Origin: Methanobacteriota archaeon
GTDB lineage: Archaea > Thermoplasmatota > Poseidoniia > Poseidoniales > Thalassarchaeaceae
DNA length: 42,613 nucleotides
Assembly: GCA_014240285.1 (NCBI GenBank)
Contig: JAAZXI010000008.1
Location: 1-42,613, forward strand
Direction of reading: 5' to 3'
Part shown: positions 23,432 through 33,110 of the stretch, piece by piece
How positions within the stretch are numbered: position 1 is the stretch's first letter
How the letters are laid out: every line of letters starts with the position of its first letter
The notes under the pieces: model-generated
What the model saw: only the letters and a program-made list of their open reading frames with translations
Database searches by the model: none
Told to the model about the DNA's origin: nothing
Program-made: the position numbers and the translations under genes

Positions 23432-24811
23432 ATGGTAGATGAACATCGCCAGCGACCCCTGGGGGCCGGAACAAGATCGGCAACATCCAAATTCGGAATT
23501 GAGGAGGCCGGGCCATGGGAAATAATAGTCCCACATACAGTCTATCCACCTCGTGAGGACACCTTCCTATTAGGTCGGGCGCTCCTTGGACTGTCTGATC
23601 GCTGTGGTATTGCAACCGAGATTGGTTGCGGCAGTGGGGCCCTGTCGATTCTGCTTGCTTCACTGGGCTGGAATGTTGCTGCGTGTGATGTCAACCCATT
23701 CGCTGTGGCGGCGGCTAGAGGTAATGTCGAGAAGGCCGGTTTCGCCGGCGCGGTCAGTGTCAAAGAAGGTGGCCCGGGAGAGCCGGGTTGGGAATTGCAG
23801 GAGGGTGTGACTTTAGTAGTGTGGAATCTACCTTATCTGGATCCGCCAGAACATGACGGAGTTTTCCTTGAGCCTATCGAGGAAGCTTCGGTGTCTGATA
23901 TTCCCGAGGGTTGGTCCAACAGCCTTCTAAAGATAATGGATGATAAGCAAATAGATCCCAACTGCCTGATAGTTTTGCTTCACCGTACCGATCCCGACAG
24001 CCGCAGCAAACCCGTCGGTTGGATTCAAAACGGCTGGTCCTGCCGACGTCTAGACAGCATGAGACTGGGCGATGAACGGCTCGAGGTGCTATCTTATTGG
24101 AAGCCAGCAGCAGGAATGCCAGCCAAAGTCATGGACGAGTGTGAATCAACAATGGACGAGGCCAAGCGGCTCACTGAGGGGGGCTGGCAGAGGGTGTTGT
24201 CTCTCTCGCAGACCTCCGGCAGAGGGAGGAGAGGGAGCTCATGGCAGACCCAAGAAGGAGGGATGGCATGCACTTGGATCCTCCCTGCAGAGTGTCTGAA
24301 GAGGCACTCTCCGGGACTAATCCAGACCGTAATCGGTGCCGCAGTGTCTGAAGCCCTCGGCTGCTTTGTCAAATGGCCGAACGACTTGGTGTCAGAAGAT
24401 GGAAGGAAGCTGGGGGGAGTACTCGTGGAGGGGAGTTCAGCTGATGGCGCTATCAGGGTCGGTATCGGACTCAATCGAGAAGGCGGCGTTGTTGATGGGA
24501 TACCTGTAGTTGGATGGAATGAGTTTGTCGGAGAGAAAACAGTCTTCGAAGTCTTCGAAATTCTGGATCCTGCTATCTCATCACTCTTCGAGGAGCATCC
24601 ACTCGCGCCCCCTGTCGAGGGAGATGAGTTGATTATACTGTCCTGGAAGGGTCTGTCGAGGTCGCTTTCAACCGGTGTGGGACTCAGGCTCAACGGGGCG
24701 CCCCTGAGGGCAGTGGGCTTGAATGGGGAAGGTCATTTGTTGGCCGAATCCAAAGGAGTGGTTGGAAAGATTGATGATCTCGGTGGACTCGACTGGGGGT
24801 CTATTCCCTGA
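23432..24811 (+). CDS. Fusion protein: HemK/PrmC/Mtq2-like class I methyltransferase plus biotin--protein ligase (BirA)
   Basis: N-term YPPREDTFLLGRALL...ATEIGCGSGALSILLASLGWNVAACDVNPFAV...VVWNLPYLDPPE; C-term CESTMDEAKRL...QTSGRGRRGSSW...KWPNDLVSEDGRKLGGVLVE...GIGLN in one uninterrupted ORF. Confidence 0.88.
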   Translation: MVDEHRQRPLGAGTRSATSKFGIEEAGPWEIIVPHTVYPPREDTFLLGRALLGLSDRCGIATEIGCGSGALSILLASLGWNVAACDVNPFAVAAARGNVEKAGFAGAVSVKEGGPGEPGWELQEGVTLVVWNLPYLDPPEHDGVFLEPIEEASVSDIPEGWSNSLLKIMDDKQIDPNCLIVLLHRTDPDSRSKPVGWIQNGWSCRRLDSMRLGDERLEVLSYWKPAAGMPAKVMDECESTMDEAKRLTEGGWQRVLSLSQTSGRGRRGSSWQTQEGGMACTWILPAECLKRHSPGLIQTVIGAAVSEALGCFVKWPNDLVSEDGRKLGGVLVEGSSADGAIRVGIGLNREGGVVDGIPVVGWNEFVGEKTVFEVFEILDPAISSLFEEHPLAPPVEGDELIILSWKGLSRSLSTGVGLRLNGAPLRAVGLNGEGHLLAESKGVVGKIDDLGGLDWGSIP

Positions 24812-26546: not shown

Positions 26547-27359
26547 GTGAGCAGGGTAAGGGCGTACTCCGAGAGACTCTTCGTAATGGGCCTCATTGTC
26601 TTGTTCGTCGCAGGGAGTACTCAGGCTCTGCACAACGGCATAGGGGGCAATGGAGATGACAAGGGGGTAGTCCCTCAAGCGGGCTGCACCTGTCACAACG
26701 AGGCTCCGAGCAATTCGGTGACCGTGCTGGTTGATGGATTGCCTTACCACTATGAGTCTGGGACTGATTACGAACTGATGATTCAGATAATCGGCGGCCC
26801 TGAATTGGATTCCTCCTCCAACACCGGGGGTTTCTCTATGCTTGTCAGCGCCGGGACTCTGGCCGCAGATGAGGGTTATGAGACACTGGTTCAAAACTGG
26901 GAGGGCGATGTTACCACTATGACTCACACCAGCTCCGGTGCGACGACCTCCGACAGGACATGGGGCGTCATATGGACTGCACCTGCTGCTGGAGAAGGAA
27001 TGGTGAGTCTGTGGCTAGCTGGCAACTCCGTCAACGGAGACTCGGTGCAGAGTGAGCTTGACATGTGGAACAGACTCACAGCCTCTGTCGCCGAGGGAGA
27101 GGATGATGGCAATACGAGAGTGGTCTTCTCTGGTAATGGCACCATAGAGCCACCACCGCCCTCAGAGGGAATCCATATCCACGAGATGGGGGCTGGACTC
27201 AGGGCTCACTGGCTAGGCCTGCTTGGGTTCGCCGCGGTGATAATCGTCCTGCTATTCTGCGGGTTATTCCTGCGTTACGGCTTCTCTAGGCACTACACCG
27301 GAAGGAGCAATCTTCTACGACTCAGGATTAAGCATCTTAGAAGAGGTGATCAACTATGA
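26547..27359 (+). CDS. Secreted Reeler/choice-anchor-like domain protein with CxCH motif and C-terminal TM helix
   Basis: Signal-like LFVMGLIVLFVAGSTQA; PQAGCTCHNEAPSNSVTV...TGGFSMLVSAG; C-terminal TM LLGFAAVIIVLLFCGLFLRYGF. Confidence 0.6.
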   Translation: MSRVRAYSERLFVMGLIVLFVAGSTQALHNGIGGNGDDKGVVPQAGCTCHNEAPSNSVTVLVDGLPYHYESGTDYELMIQIIGGPELDSSSNTGGFSMLVSAGTLAADEGYETLVQNWEGDVTTMTHTSSGATTSDRTWGVIWTAPAAGEGMVSLWLAGNSVNGDSVQSELDMWNRLTASVAEGEDDGNTRVVFSGNGTIEPPPPSEGIHIHEMGAGLRAHWLGLLGFAAVIIVLLFCGLFLRYGFSRHYTGRSNLLRLRIKHLRRGDQL

Positions 27360-27805
27360 ATGAAGATGTTGTCATGAAACTGCTCAGGCAGGTACAGTCT
27401 GGCGAAGTCAGCGTCGAGGATGCTCGCTCTGCTCTCGAAGACACTGTGCTGACGGTGGAGGAATTCAGTGCCGCGGTAGATCATGGAGTGTTCAACGAGC
27501 CCGAGTCGGGTACGGTCGTGCGGGCCTCTGTCTCACCCTTCGGCGATTCCATTCTGATTCTCTTGCTGTCCCTCTGGGGCGTCCTTTGGAGTTTGTACTG
27601 GGCAGGTGGGCTAACCTACGGGCTGTTCAACGGATGGGATCAGCAATTGCTGTCGTTTCATATGGGCATGCTCATGTTGACCATCATCATCCTAGGGATG
27701 GTCTATCTGAAGTTCGTGATGCCAGATGTAGTCATAGTCAAGCACCGAGGTAACAAGTACATCACTTCGAATGATCCTGAGGGATGGAGACAGTATGAGG
27801 TGTGA
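27356..27805 (+). CDS. Small two-TM protein of the respiratory operon
   Basis: ATGA overlap with the previous gene; hydrophobic ILILLLSLWGVLWSLYWAGGLTYGLF and MGMLMLTIIILGMVYLKF. Confidence 0.6.
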   Translation: MNEDVVMKLLRQVQSGEVSVEDARSALEDTVLTVEEFSAAVDHGVFNEPESGTVVRASVSPFGDSILILLLSLWGVLWSLYWAGGLTYGLFNGWDQQLLSFHMGMLMLTIIILGMVYLKFVMPDVVIVKHRGNKYITSNDPEGWRQYEV

Positions 27806-28662
27806 TGATGGCTAGGAGATTCAGACTCAGACCCATCTCCGGCGATGCCGGAGTTGCTTCGGAGGCTCCGAATATGATTGACAGGAGGGAATTCATGCGC
27901 CACTCCTTCAACACCGCTGCCGGCGTCATCACCATGGCTAGTCTTGGCGCGATTGGTTTCGCCTCTCTGCTGATGGGACAGGCGGATGCGGACGGCGGAG
28001 ATTCTTCCGTGCGCTTCTGGGTGCCCACCGGTGCCGAGGATTCAGCTTGGTACGGTGACTTGCACCTCGAGCAGATGGAGTTCCAGTCGTTTGTCGATGC
28101 CGCTGCAACCTCCACTACAGGGATGGCAGGGGCTTCCGGAGTCTGGTCAGGCCTCCCTGTCAATGTGATTTACGTCCCTCACGATGAGAACTCTCAGACC
28201 ACTCTGGAGGAGAACAAGCCGCGGTTCCAGTTCATGGACGGTTACAACGAGAGTGGTGCCTATGTGGGCTCTGGTTACGAGGTCAACGAGAAGCCAGAGT
28301 ACGAGACCCTGTCGATTCACGACAATATGATCATCATATTCTCAAGGTGCCCGCACCTGTGCTGCATCCCTGGTTGGCAGCTCGTTGCGAATGACTTCAC
28401 AAGCGATCAATGGAGTCCTGGTGGCGGTGATGCCGGTGGCAACAAACTATTCTGCATATGCCACTCCAGTAGGTATGACCCCACGGTCATCGAGAAGAAT
28501 CGTAATAGAAACAGAATCAACGGCTCCGAATTCGACTTCATAGGAGTCAAAAGAACCGGTGGCCCTGCGCCAATGGGTATGCCATTGATTCCATTTGAGG
28601 TCAACGGAGGAATCATCGAGGCCCTTGATGACTTCAAAGACTGGTACACATTTTGTGAGTAG
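27802..28662 (+). CDS. Rieske [2Fe-2S] iron-sulfur protein
   Basis: CPHLCCIPGW...FCICHSSRYDP (CxH...CxxH plus the disulfide cysteines); N-terminal DRREFMRHSFNTAAGVITMASLGAIGFASLLMG (Tat-like). Confidence 0.93.
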   Translation: MMMARRFRLRPISGDAGVASEAPNMIDRREFMRHSFNTAAGVITMASLGAIGFASLLMGQADADGGDSSVRFWVPTGAEDSAWYGDLHLEQMEFQSFVDAAATSTTGMAGASGVWSGLPVNVIYVPHDENSQTTLEENKPRFQFMDGYNESGAYVGSGYEVNEKPEYETLSIHDNMIIIFSRCPHLCCIPGWQLVANDFTSDQWSPGGGDAGGNKLFCICHSSRYDPTVIEKNRNRNRINGSEFDFIGVKRTGGPAPMGMPLIPFEVNGGIIEALDDFKDWYTFCE

Positions 28663-28670
28663 GTGATATA

Positions 28671-29537
28671 GTGATTCAATTCTGGTTCCTGTGGCTTTTC
28701 ATTGCCATCGTTGTGGTCCTCGTGGCCTTCACGCTGCGAAAGGAGCGGGACGACATGCCGAGGACCGATATCCTGCGAGCCGTAGAGACCAGTGCAGGCA
28801 GCATGGGTCTAGCGGAGAAGGGTTTCTTGTGGGCATTCTCCTGGCTCGACACCAGATTCCGAATCCAAGACTACTGGGGGATGAGTAAGGACGCATACCA
28901 CCACATGCACCGGCAGATGCCGCTGACACACGCTGAGAAGTACAAGTTGCGTATCATCTGGTACTGGTATCCACTGTACTGCCTCGGAGGGATTTCCTTC
29001 CTCGCCTTCGTCATACTGGTGATCTCGGGGACTGTGCTGGGGTTGTACTATGTCCCAGGAGGAGAGGGGACTCCATCTCCTGCTTACCTCAGTATGGAGT
29101 TCATCATGGTCGACTTGCCGTTCGGCTACATCATGAGATCGATACACCACTGGACAACTCACTTCATGGTGGCAGCGGTGTTCCTGCACATGTGCAGAGT
29201 ATACTTCACTGGGGCGTACCGCAACCCACGTGAGCTAAATTGGCTCATCGGCGTCGCATTGATGTTCTTCACCATCTTCTTCGGTTACTCCGGCTACCTC
29301 TTGCCTTGGGACAGCTTAGCCTTCGGGGCTGCTACTATAGGTATCAACATGGCCAGTTCAACCCCCCTAGTAGGGAGTTGGATGGCCAAGGCGCTGTTCG
29401 CAGGAACCACTCTGTCCGGCCAGACAGTGACTAGGATGTACTTCCTGCATGTGTTCATTCTTCCTGTCCTAGTGACCGGCCTGATTCTGGCGCACCTGTT
29501 TATCGTCTGGGTACAAGGTATTGCGGAGCCACATTGA
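28671..29537 (+). CDS. Cytochrome b, b6-type N-terminal haem-binding subunit
   Basis: IHHWTTHFMVAAVFLHMCRVYFTGAYRNPRELNW and LHVFILPVLVTGLILAHLFIVWVQG give His spacings 14 and 15 as in b6; GYSGYLLPWDSLAFGA. Confidence 0.93.
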   Translation: MIQFWFLWLFIAIVVVLVAFTLRKERDDMPRTDILRAVETSAGSMGLAEKGFLWAFSWLDTRFRIQDYWGMSKDAYHHMHRQMPLTHAEKYKLRIIWYWYPLYCLGGISFLAFVILVISGTVLGLYYVPGGEGTPSPAYLSMEFIMVDLPFGYIMRSIHHWTTHFMVAAVFLHMCRVYFTGAYRNPRELNWLIGVALMFFTIFFGYSGYLLPWDSLAFGAATIGINMASSTPLVGSWMAKALFAGTTLSGQTVTRMYFLHVFILPVLVTGLILAHLFIVWVQGIAEPH

Positions 29538-29546
29538 GGTGATTGT

Positions 29547-32360
29547 ATGGGTATAATCGACAGGTTTGGGAGAATTGCTGACACTTACATAAGCGAAAGA
29601 GATCAGTTGTTAGAAGCGGATGAGGAGAGGCGCCGGGTTTTCGTCGGTCATGCCTTTTGGCCGACCGAGATCATCAGGGACAGCATTATCCTCGCCGCGA
29701 TGATGGCGGTAATTTCGTTTTACTCATGGATCATCCCTCCACCCCTCCATAGTGCAGCCGACCCATTTGCTCAAGCCGGATTCGTCTTCCCTGACTGGTA
29801 TGTCCTGTTCTCATACGGGTACCTGAGATGGGGTGAGTATCTCCCGCAGTTCATCATCCCGGCGGGACCCATAGGGGACTTCTTCGGCTCACCTGTAATC
29901 GCTTGGAACGCCGGTTGGTGGGGCTCAGCCTTGACAGGCATCCCCGTTGGCCTATTGGCACTACCTCCATTCATCATAGGGAAGAGAGAGAAGAGAGGTG
30001 TCGAGGACCCGTGGTTCGCCACTGCTGGGGCGATCTATCTGGCTCATGTCTGGTTCATCTCCGTTTTCTCGATCAACATCTTCCTCGACCTCTACTCTAA
30101 GGATCTTAGAAATTATTGCTGGTCAAACTCTCACAACGACCTAGTCTGCGGCAGACAGGCCCCTTGGACGGCTGATGTTTTCAATGCCATACCTTGGGTG
30201 TTGACGGGAATATTCGTATTCGCCGTGATATACTTCGGCGTGAGGTGGTTCGTTCTGAACTCAATCGGTGCGAGACTATCTCCGGTTATCGGCAGACAGA
30301 TTGCAATCAGCTCTATCGTGGCTGCCGTAATCATCTCTGTAGTCACATGGCCAATCTACGACAGCGGCTTCTGGGACTACGGTGGCCTTGGTGCGATGGA
30401 TGAAGTAGAGGACCTTGATACCATGCGTGCGCAACCCTCAGACACTCTAGTGCACAAAGGAAATGGTAACGTGTGGACTGACTGGGAGGAGGAATGCCTG
30501 CCCTATTCTGAATACTACAGTGAGCTAGCAGTTTGGGATGACTTTGACTTTGAACATGATGACCATAGTGACTGGTGTGTGATAGCGGCTGCGAATTGGG
30601 CTGATTGGGGAATCTATCAACCGACCAAGAAGGTCATCATAGACTTTTCAGGAGACAATGGGCATGCTGACACTGAGATTGGGAGAAATGCCGGCGGTTC
30701 GGCCACCACATACCCAGGGAATGTAGATCAGTCGCCAATAGCAATCTCTGATAGCAGCACGTTCGAAGTCGAAAATCTTGGGATTTCCAGTGTCCCTGCT
30801 GATGTTGGTTGCACGTTCCGGACGGTTTACACGGATACGGGCGATTCTGCCAGGAATGCGGGAGTTCACTCTCAAAGCATCAAACTCCTAGACTCCTCCG
30901 GGACGATCCTCTGGGAGAATAAGGGTAGTGAGTGTGAGTCAACTACAATCTACCTATCAGCTGGGGCAAGCTACACGGTCAGTTTCTCGTTCAACTCCGA
31001 GGGAGTCAATGAATCCATTTCTATGGCCACGGACTTCTCGGCAGTGGCCTACCAGCCCCTCCTACTCGGCGGAGATGGTACGGCTATCGTCAGGTCCGAA
31101 TCGGCTCTGAGTCTTGATGAGTTGACTGCGCTCTCCCTAGACAACCCAACATACCACAAAAATCCTAAGGGGCTCGATGCTAAGCTGATTTACAGCCTGT
31201 CCATCCCCTGTCTCGGAGTGGGTGCAATCGTGTTCATGGTTATGCGTAGCATGGCCAGAGGATACGAGTGGGAGATGAACAAGTGCTACGGCTGCGACCT
31301 GTGTGACGACGCCTGCCCGGTCAGGCTATTCACTGCCGGTGACAAACTGAACATCATCTACAACACTTGGAACAACGAGGACGACGGTGTCCCGTTGTAC
31401 TCTTGCCTAACCTGCACGGCCTGCACCAATGCCTGCCCGCAGTTGGTGGACTACGACTCCTACGTCGACATTCGCAGAAACCTCATTGTCGGTGGCCCAC
31501 CAGCTACTGAGATTCCACACACACTGCTTCAGGCTGTGCTGGCTGCTGAGGCTGAAGAGGATGCTGACGAGGCCTTCATCTCGATTGAGGACTACCCAAT
31601 AGATTCCAACGTCGGCTACTACCCAGGGTGCGTAGACTATATCGATCAGGAGATGGTTTTCAGTCATGTAAACGAGGGCGAGATGAATCTCGGTGAGACC
31701 ACTACCGCTGCCTTCACACTGTTCGAGGAGATGGGTGAGGACGTCACCTACCTTGGTCGCGACTTCCTGAAGTGCTGCGGTCACGACCAGAAATGGCAGG
31801 GTCTGTCAGAGGTGTTTGAGAAACTGAAGGCCTACAACCAAAAGAAACTGGGTGATAGCGGTATTGACACCTTGGTCACCTCATGTGCAGAGTGTTTTCG
31901 AACCTTCGCTCTAGATTACGAGTTGGACGAGATGAAGGTCATGCACACCACCGAGTACCTAGTCGAGAAGGGTTTTGACATGGAATTGGCTGTGGATGAC
32001 GACGTCACCGTAACCTACCATGACCCATGCCGCCTCGGACGTCAAATGGACCTCTACGACAAGCCCCGCGATCTGGTCGAGTCGGTAGATGGCGTTAGTC
32101 TGGTCGAGATGGAGCACCACGGTGAGGATGCATTGTGCTGCGGCGTCTCCAGCATGATGGCCTGTAACGAGAACAGTAGGGCTCTGCGCCTACAGCGATT
32201 CGACGAGGTGAAGGCGACTGGCGCAGATGTGATGCTTACGACCTGTCCCAAGTGCGTTGCGCATTTCGAGTGCCTCAAGTTAGAAGGGGATCCGCGTCAC
32301 GACTTCGAGATTCTAGACGTTGTCAGTTTCCTCGCCCGCCAGGTGGACTCCAGGAAATAG
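29547..32360 (+). CDS. Fusion protein: cytochrome b C-terminal (subunit IV-like) module, extracytoplasmic insert, HdrD-like (HdrC+HdrB) FeS/CCG module
   Basis: FPDWYVLFSYGYLRW (Qo PDWY motif), about 6 TM segments, CYGCDLCDDACPV...CLTCTACTNACPQ (2x[4Fe-4S]), two CCG domains (YYPGC...DFLKCCGH...SCAEC; YHDPC...ALCCG...TTCPKC), all in one ORF. Confidence 0.9.
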   Translation: MGIIDRFGRIADTYISERDQLLEADEERRRVFVGHAFWPTEIIRDSIILAAMMAVISFYSWIIPPPLHSAADPFAQAGFVFPDWYVLFSYGYLRWGEYLPQFIIPAGPIGDFFGSPVIAWNAGWWGSALTGIPVGLLALPPFIIGKREKRGVEDPWFATAGAIYLAHVWFISVFSINIFLDLYSKDLRNYCWSNSHNDLVCGRQAPWTADVFNAIPWVLTGIFVFAVIYFGVRWFVLNSIGARLSPVIGRQIAISSIVAAVIISVVTWPIYDSGFWDYGGLGAMDEVEDLDTMRAQPSDTLVHKGNGNVWTDWEEECLPYSEYYSELAVWDDFDFEHDDHSDWCVIAAANWADWGIYQPTKKVIIDFSGDNGHADTEIGRNAGGSATTYPGNVDQSPIAISDSSTFEVENLGISSVPADVGCTFRTVYTDTGDSARNAGVHSQSIKLLDSSGTILWENKGSECESTTIYLSAGASYTVSFSFNSEGVNESISMATDFSAVAYQPLLLGGDGTAIVRSESALSLDELTALSLDNPTYHKNPKGLDAKLIYSLSIPCLGVGAIVFMVMRSMARGYEWEMNKCYGCDLCDDACPVRLFTAGDKLNIIYNTWNNEDDGVPLYSCLTCTACTNACPQLVDYDSYVDIRRNLIVGGPPATEIPHTLLQAVLAAEAEEDADEAFISIEDYPIDSNVGYYPGCVDYIDQEMVFSHVNEGEMNLGETTTAAFTLFEEMGEDVTYLGRDFLKCCGHDQKWQGLSEVFEKLKAYNQKKLGDSGIDTLVTSCAECFRTFALDYELDEMKVMHTTEYLVEKGFDMELAVDDDVTVTYHDPCRLGRQMDLYDKPRDLVESVDGVSLVEMEHHGEDALCCGVSSMMACNENSRALRLQRFDEVKATGADVMLTTCPKCVAHFECLKLEGDPRHDFEILDVVSFLARQVDSRK

Positions 32361-32460: not shown

Positions 32461-32802
32461 TTGCCGGACGTGACGGGGATACCAGACCTACTTGCCCGGC
32501 GGGCCGCCGAGCAGAAGCGCATCCGGATGATGCTCGATTCCATGAGAGCAGAAGAGGAGGCCAACATCAAGGGAGGTGAGGACGCTGTCGCATGGGTCAA
32601 ACAAGAGTTGTGCATAGGTTGCGACCAGTGCACTATAGTCTGTGACGATGAAGCCATAGAACTGTACGATACTCCACTCGCAAGCCCGATTATGGAAGTA
32701 GAAGTGAATCGCAAGGCCAAAATCCTGCGAGACGAATGCACAGGGTGTAAGTTGTGTGTCCTAGGCTGCCCGACCGATGCGATAATCATGATTGACAGGT
32801 AG
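32461..32802 (+). CDS. 2x[4Fe-4S] ferredoxin-type protein
   Basis: CIGCDQCTIVCDDEAI and CTGCKLCVLGCPTDAI; TTG start. Confidence 0.85.
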   Translation: MPDVTGIPDLLARRAAEQKRIRMMLDSMRAEEEANIKGGEDAVAWVKQELCIGCDQCTIVCDDEAIELYDTPLASPIMEVEVNRKAKILRDECTGCKLCVLGCPTDAIIMIDR

Positions 32803-32810
32803 GAATTAAC

Positions 32811-33110
32811 GTGGAAGACAAGGAGCCGTTGAGATTTGGGGCCGAGTTCGGCCCCAAGAGGAGTAGTCGCTCCAGCGGCGTCTCACTTTCGACATTCAAG
32901 ACCTTAGTGTGGGTGTCCAACATAGGCGGCCTTGTTCTGTTCGTAATTGGACTTGAGCTGATGGTGGTGATGCAGTCATTCTACCTCGGTCTCGGCTGCA
33001 TTGTGGCTGGGATAATCATCGCACTGTTCCCTTCAAACTACGAAATCGTTGGAATGGAAGACATTTCTATCGGGAACGAAGGCAGCGAGTCTGGGGACGA
33101 GGCGGAGTAG
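32811..33110 (+). CDS. Hypothetical two-TM membrane protein
   Basis: LVWVSNIGGLVLFVIGLELMVVMQSFYLGLGCIVAGIIIALF; GTG start. Confidence 0.55.
   Translation: MEDKEPLRFGAEFGPKRSSRSSGVSLSTFKTLVWVSNIGGLVLFVIGLELMVVMQSFYLGLGCIVAGIIIALFPSNYEIVGMEDISIGNEGSESGDEAE

Follow-up and report, generated by a model that had tools for sequence, protein, structure and literature searches.

Marine Group II (MG-II) ranks among the most common archaea in ocean surface waters. It has been described as having a non-canonical complex III or missing the canonical one, together with an orphan "RnfB" (PMC6336850). In one Angelarchaeales genome Diamond et al. noticed that genes resembling hdrD and rnfB lie next to complex III, and they suggested an entry of ferredoxin electrons (PMC9038741). 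In a survey of archaeal fusions the respiratory chains are represented by fusions of complexes I and IV, and none of complex III is listed (PMC11237513). In the EtfD protein of Mycobacterium smegmatis the D1 site is a linear [3Fe-4S] site at which Thr539 replaces a cysteine of Hdr, and the D2 cluster involves His583; since EtfD fuses a five-helix b-heme domain to an FeS module of two [4Fe-4S] motifs and two CCG domains, the view in the first-pass annotation of the locus described here, namely that HdrD-type proteins occur as separate subunits only, has to be corrected (PMC13083937). Anammox Rieske/cytochrome b complexes carry FeS/NAD(P) subunits on the N side, and an outward electron flow was proposed for them (PMC12954380). 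Whether b6f-type complexes accept ferredoxin electrons at the N-side heme ci has been debated for decades with regard to cyclic photosynthesis in plants, and the delivery of these electrons to the N side of b6f is still worded with a "may" (PMC13287000).

Here, we describe a locus in the window, i.e. the whole stretch of DNA that was analysed (42,613 nucleotides; G000:C94). Gene order and near relatives so named make a Ca. Thalassarchaeum (Poseidoniales, MG-II) its most likely source. The protein in question had been read in the first pass as one uninterrupted frame with a subunit-IV-like N-terminal region carrying FPDWY, further membrane crossings and finally two [4Fe-4S] motifs and two CCG domains, and all of this stands. 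A single open frame for 937 residues on the forward strand runs from the ATG at 29547 to the stop at 32360, hydropathy reveals six hydrophobic segments, and the C-terminal 360 residues consist of the two [4Fe-4S] motifs and the two CCG domains. Pfam calls PF02754 (CCG) twice (2.2e-22) and Fer4_8 (3e-07), both over their cut-offs; Cytochrom_B_C was not called on the fusion protein of the window itself. When the N-terminal half and its relatives were combined into a profile, cytochrome b (2qjp, 2.3e-05) and b6f subunit IV (2e74_B, 3.8e-05) were matched in the PDB, and in two other Thermoplasmatota PF00032 is over cut-off in the same frame as CCG and Fer4 (L045 with 789 aa, L101 with 606 aa). What had been missed is an insert of about 270 residues (276–545). 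It shows a mean identity of 0.48 versus 0.81–0.91 for the PetD core and the FeS/CCG domains, and its strands are predicted with good confidence in the AlphaFold model of the 937-residue protein. The coordinates of all features are collected in Table 1.

Table 1. Features of the fusion gene and its operon (positions in the window).
Feature	Position	Strand	Basis or remark
Membrane-anchored extracytoplasmic protein, choice-of-anchor V domain, CTCH motif; operon neighbour	26547..27359	+	NF041895 1.8e-24
Small membrane protein, DUF7318-like, complex III operon	27356..27805	+	PF24002 2.9e-05, just under cut-off; overlaps both neighbours
Rieske iron–sulfur protein	27802..28662	+	TIGR01416 3.6e-11, below cut-off; ligands CPHLCC...CICH
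Cytochrome b6-type subunit, two b-heme His pairs and heme-ci cysteine	28671..29537	+	PF00033 1.2e-40
Cys104 in YCLGG, equivalent of the heme ci/cN cysteine	28980..28982	+	pattern match 28965-28987
Fusion protein, PetD-like + insert + 2[4Fe-4S] + 2 CCG, 937 aa	29547..32360	+	
PetD/subunit-IV-like half, helices E, F, G, residues 1-183	29547..30095	+	profile match to cytochrome b / b6f subunit IV
PDWY Qo motif, residues 82-85	29790..29801	+	invariant in 78/78 distinct MG-II sequences
Two extra helices, TM4 (~214-232) and TM5 (~252-270)	30162..30371	+	hydropathy; predicted helices 206-243, 246-272
Extracytoplasmic beta-rich insert, ~270 aa, residues 276-545, between TM5 and TM6	30372..31181	+	fastest-evolving part
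Sixth helix, back into the cytoplasm	31185..31241	+	hydropathy 547-565
Two [4Fe-4S] motifs, Cys580/583/586/590 and Cys620/623/626/630	31284..31436	+	PF13183 3e-07; 8 Cys invariant in 78/78
CCG domain 1, Cys695, 743, 744, 780, 783; Glu782	31611..31916	+	PF02754 26.4 bits, over cut-off
CCG domain 2, Cys828, 864, 865, 900, 903	32010..32267	+	PF02754 64.1 bits; invariant in 78/78
Dicluster 2[4Fe-4S] ferredoxin, RnfB-like, probable partner subunit	32461..32802	+	PF14697 1e-12
Small membrane protein, last in operon	32811..33110	+	order conserved in Ca. Thalassarchaeum betae

The AlphaFold model of the N-terminal half, with predicted helices at residues 39–62, 84–97, 122–138 and 155–175, is of moderate quality (pLDDT 66.7); its top PDB match, the b6f subunit IV of spinach, is weak (E 0.27) and thus gives only a hint for a subunit-IV fold. 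The membrane part of the full-length model is poor (pLDDT 62.5, pTM 0.37), and because of this low to moderate quality the geometry was taken from neither model. From the alternation of the six helices it follows that PDWY and the insert should lie outside (P side) and the FeS/CCG domains inside (N side). The CCG half of the model clearly matches EtfD, LutA and HdrB. Elsewhere in the window, a single frame at 23432–24811 appears by eye to join an N-terminal methyltransferase to a biotin–protein ligase.

A subunit IV of the b6f type and an FeS/CCG module of the HdrC/HdrB type thus form a fixed and strongly conserved fusion. The N-terminal half of this fusion was found in 126 of the 129 MG-II genomes screened (two families, 21 genera), mostly in frames of 920–990 residues (about 930), and the three remaining genomes are 80–85% complete. 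The full fusion protein is encoded in a genome that consists of one contig of 2.06 Mb (G072), and also on contigs of the isolates AH-287-M04, AG-457-A01 and AG-404-A19, which we take, going by their names, to be single-cell genomes. A chimera or misassembly is ruled out by this presence in 21 genera, by the one-contig genome and by the records that read as single-cell genomes. In 78 distinct MG-II sequences the 18 FeS/CCG cysteines are invariant with one exception (Cys744 is serine in one sequence), and Glu782 is found in all of them. Over the FeS half and the junction dN/dS amounts to about 0.01–0.08 within the genus, as far as comparisons with non-saturated dS are concerned. Viral contigs were scanned for the PDWY region and none with it was found.

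The Rieske [2Fe-2S] ligand pattern CPHLCC...CICH occurs in 86 MG-II copies, and the extra adjacent cysteine in its CPHLCC loop is kept in these 86 copies as well. Cytochrome b has its H-13-H and H-14-H pairs and Cys104 in all 78 distinct MG-II sequences. Cys104 is the counterpart of Cys35 in cytochrome b6, the covalent site of heme ci/cN in b6f; the subunit has kept the b6f-type heme-ci cysteine, with heme ci itself putative. Genes of the same type as the anchored protein at the beginning of the operon are located upstream of complex III in the families f3, f4, f20 and f30, and for the last product (32811–33110) family-model searches gave no confident family. As read from genes and ligand residues, the operon is complete for a working Rieske/cytochrome b complex, and we infer that the fusion is a subunit of this MG-II complex III.

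The heme-ci cysteine is found in all covered MG-II loci, in G120, G140 and G146, lineages whose halves are fused or linked, in L044, L045 and L046, and in one lineage with PetD alone (L095). It is absent in six other PetD-alone lineages and in the MG-III genus g23, where serine occupies its place. The FeS arm and this cysteine thus tend to co-occur in the sequences compared, with one exception each way. Since g23 keeps the arm, heme ci would not be obligatory for it.

A second regular neighbour is the dicluster ferredoxin. It adjoins the fusion in 115 of the 117 MG-II loci with enough flank, some of which are one genome present in two collections (111 on the same strand, four on the opposite one); near the fusion in the other two loci (L049, L104) it was not found. 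Its match to the RnfB family reaches at most about 51 bits against a cut-off of 68.7, and the identity as classical RnfB was rejected because it stays under this cut-off everywhere in MG-II. It probably is the orphan "RnfB" reported for the group (PMC6336850). The MG-III counterpart has four [4Fe-4S] motifs, and in two MG-III genomes the first half of this protein consists of a flavodoxin domain (PF00258, 7.5e-27); the resulting flavodoxin–dicluster ferredoxin fusions lie beside complex III (L048:7004-7993 and L054:6946-7935, both on the minus strand). Ferredoxin and flavodoxin are classic stand-ins for each other. In the CSMAG lineage an HdrA-like/FlpD gene (L103:757-2292, plus strand), which unites an HdrA N-terminal-like region and an FlpD domain in one protein, overlaps the stop of the PetD–CCG fusion. 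All these partners are cytoplasmic low-potential electron carriers. In MG-II, 2-oxoacid:ferredoxin oxidoreductases were detected in each of 18 genomes but NuoF in only one of 18, so that electrons are likely handled to a large part as reduced ferredoxin. The NADH-binding NuoF was not found in the other 17, although MG-II has been described with a canonical complex I.

We therefore lean towards the reading that the FeS/CCG arm connects ferredoxin- or flavodoxin-type carriers with the N side (Qn/heme ci) of a b6f-like complex. Quinol oxidation would take place in the usual way at the Qo site on the P side, and on the N side the arm and the small ferredoxin would form an electron wire between soluble low-potential carriers and the Qn site or heme ci. 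Input is the most likely direction, the reverse being possible: electrons would come in from ferredoxin and help in quinone reduction at Qn. For b6f a function as ferredoxin–plastoquinone reductase has been proposed, and this is the model for such an input. The location of the arm across the membrane from PDWY, according to hydropathy, speaks in favour, as do the complete operon and ligands, the heme-ci cysteine kept in MG-II, the carrier genes beside the fusion, the distribution of 2-oxoacid:ferredoxin oxidoreductases and NuoF, and the separate route for electron-transfer flavoprotein described below. Against it count that the putative heme ci is deduced from one cysteine, which is serine in g23 despite the arm there, that a direct delivery of ferredoxin electrons to quinone would leave out complex I at a loss of energy, and that the ferredoxin gene was not found near the fusion in L049 and L104.

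No such waste would arise if the electrons ran outward. In that case those of quinol would be bifurcated: one would pass through Rieske to a plastocyanin and oxygen, and the second would travel over bL, bH, heme ci and the FeS arm and reduce ferredoxin, flavodoxin or a substrate in the cytoplasm. The same parts could serve this flow, as has been proposed for the anammox Rieske/cytochrome b complexes, whose N side bears FeS/NAD(P) reductase subunits (PMC12954380), but the need for it is unclear with ferredoxin-producing 2-oxoacid oxidoreductases in every MG-II genome tested, and very low heme b potentials would be required. We hold output to be rather unlikely. Its particular form, a cross-membrane bifurcation in an aerobic marine archaeon, in which one quinol electron enters the high-potential chain and the other reduces ferredoxin or flavodoxin through heme ci and the built-in FeS/CCG arm, is unlikely.

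The solved structure nearest to the FeS/CCG half, and also its best structural match, is EtfD (9ojn, 5.1e-22), and by this kinship the arm might, like mycobacterial EtfD, accept electrons from electron-transfer flavoprotein (ETF) as an ETF:quinone oxidoreductase. However, the genome of the window has a distinct protein of 676 residues with the EtfD-specific ligands, serine at the place of T539 and CPHC at that of H583, and its MG-III counterpart is located directly upstream of etfBA. Two of 18 MG-II genomes lack this CCG protein of about 680 residues and encode a classical ETF-QO, yet the fusion is kept in both. At the places of Thr539 and His583 the fusion shows Cys744 (77 of 78 sequences) and Glu782 (78 of 78), and its membrane half is subunit-IV-like, with no five-helix b-heme domain of the EtfD type found in it. 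With ETF served by a separate EtfD or ETF-QO, the identity of the fusion as ETF dehydrogenase was ruled out; its partner is most likely something else, and an ETF-accepting arm is very improbable. This EtfD-like protein of archaea, which bears the ligand signature known from mycobacteria, is encoded at L097:1195-3225 (minus strand; G000:C28), and in G014 and G019 classical ETF-QO takes its place.

HdrB is likewise among the structural matches, and the five-plus-five cysteine ligands of the HdrB type are complete in 77 of 78 MG-II sequences, as would suit a heterodisulfide-reductase-like thiol/disulfide enzyme coupled to the quinone pool. Such chemistry had been part of the first reading. But one cysteine of the first CCG domain was lost in three sub-lineages, i.e. 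G013 within MG-II, MG-III g23 (Ser) and G120 (Gly, CAEG), and without it two-cluster disulfide chemistry should no longer be possible; furthermore, no gene for a thiol-substrate partner was seen in the operon, where the neighbouring partner is ferredoxin or, in MG-III, flavodoxin–ferredoxin. We consider disulfide chemistry quite improbable. What can be retained of the initial interpretation is that a b6f-like complex and a module of the HdrC+HdrB type are covalently linked and that this link is fixed across an order. Models of the LdhH and TfrB type among the top family matches would also allow for another soluble partner, for example a dehydrogenase of the lactate or glycolate type. The operon has no such dehydrogenase gene, and a structural or regulatory appendage that is inert is disfavoured by the strong purifying selection on all cluster ligands, so we assign little probability to this group of explanations.

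Beyond MG-II the same modules are arranged differently. While they are fused throughout the order, the halves are separate only outside of it: MG-III-like genomes (f3) encode subunit IV and two [4Fe-4S] motifs in one gene, whose clearest copies specify 351–378 residues, and, overlapping with it, the CCG pair in a gene of its own. The full fusion lacks the insert in L045 and L101, and the insert is absent from the L045, L046 and L047 proteins. In six other lineages and in L095 PetD stands alone, and the stretch read there contains no CCG gene. PetD-alone proteins end with YExxLNxxYYKVR and fused proteins have YExxMNKCYGCDLC at the same place, which locates the fusion junction inside a conserved tail. 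In a tree of cytochrome b and PetD the six PetD-alone lineages group together (support 100) and the fused lineages are poorly grouped (support 52–83); with these latter values, rooting the origin of the fusion (fusion first versus loss first) failed. The PetD of f20 (L092:5994-7733, minus strand; 579 residues) also has a long insert and lacks the FeS/CCG part.

The operon of MG-II offers one answer to both its non-canonical complex III and its orphan "RnfB" (PMC6336850), in that this complex would probably trade electrons directly with cytoplasmic ferredoxin-type carriers. With an FeS electron arm welded onto subunit IV, entry or exit of electrons on the N side becomes directly testable in a defined complex. 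In the limited literature collection searched no description of a PetD–FeS/CCG fusion, biochemical or other, was found.

Compared with known systems, the MG-II complex shares with cytochrome b6f and other Rieske/cytochrome b complexes the Rieske protein, a four-His cytochrome b6, a subunit IV with PDWY and the heme-ci cysteine. In contrast with b6f, its subunit IV adds two helices, the extracytoplasmic insert and the cytoplasmic module of two [4Fe-4S] motifs and two CCG domains, and no cytochrome f or c1 gene was recognised in its operon. The locus in Angelarchaeales represents the same neighbourhood idea with the same suggestion of ferredoxin entry, but it was reported in one paragraph as proximal genes, without fusion or residue analysis (PMC9038741). 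Common to the Rieske/cytochrome b complex of Kuenenia (PMC12954380) is the proposal of an N-side FeS wire to heme bN/cN; there, however, a flavin/NAD(P) subunit and multiheme c subunits are involved, whereas the CCG module of MG-II has no recognised flavin or nucleotide domain. With HdrDE and DsrMK the fusion shares the HdrD architecture, i.e. two [4Fe-4S] motifs and two CCG domains with complete sets of five cysteines each, but its membrane partner is a fused bc-type subunit IV and not a cytochrome of the HdrE or DsrM type. Mycobacterial EtfD (Rv0338c / MSMEG_0690; 9ojn), finally, also fuses membrane helices to two [4Fe-4S] motifs and two CCG domains. In EtfD the membrane is spanned by a b-heme domain of five helices that has a quinone site of its own, whereas the membrane part of the MG-II fusion is subunit-IV-like, and the D1 and D2 sites involve Thr539 and His583 in EtfD but Cys744 and Glu782 in the fusion.
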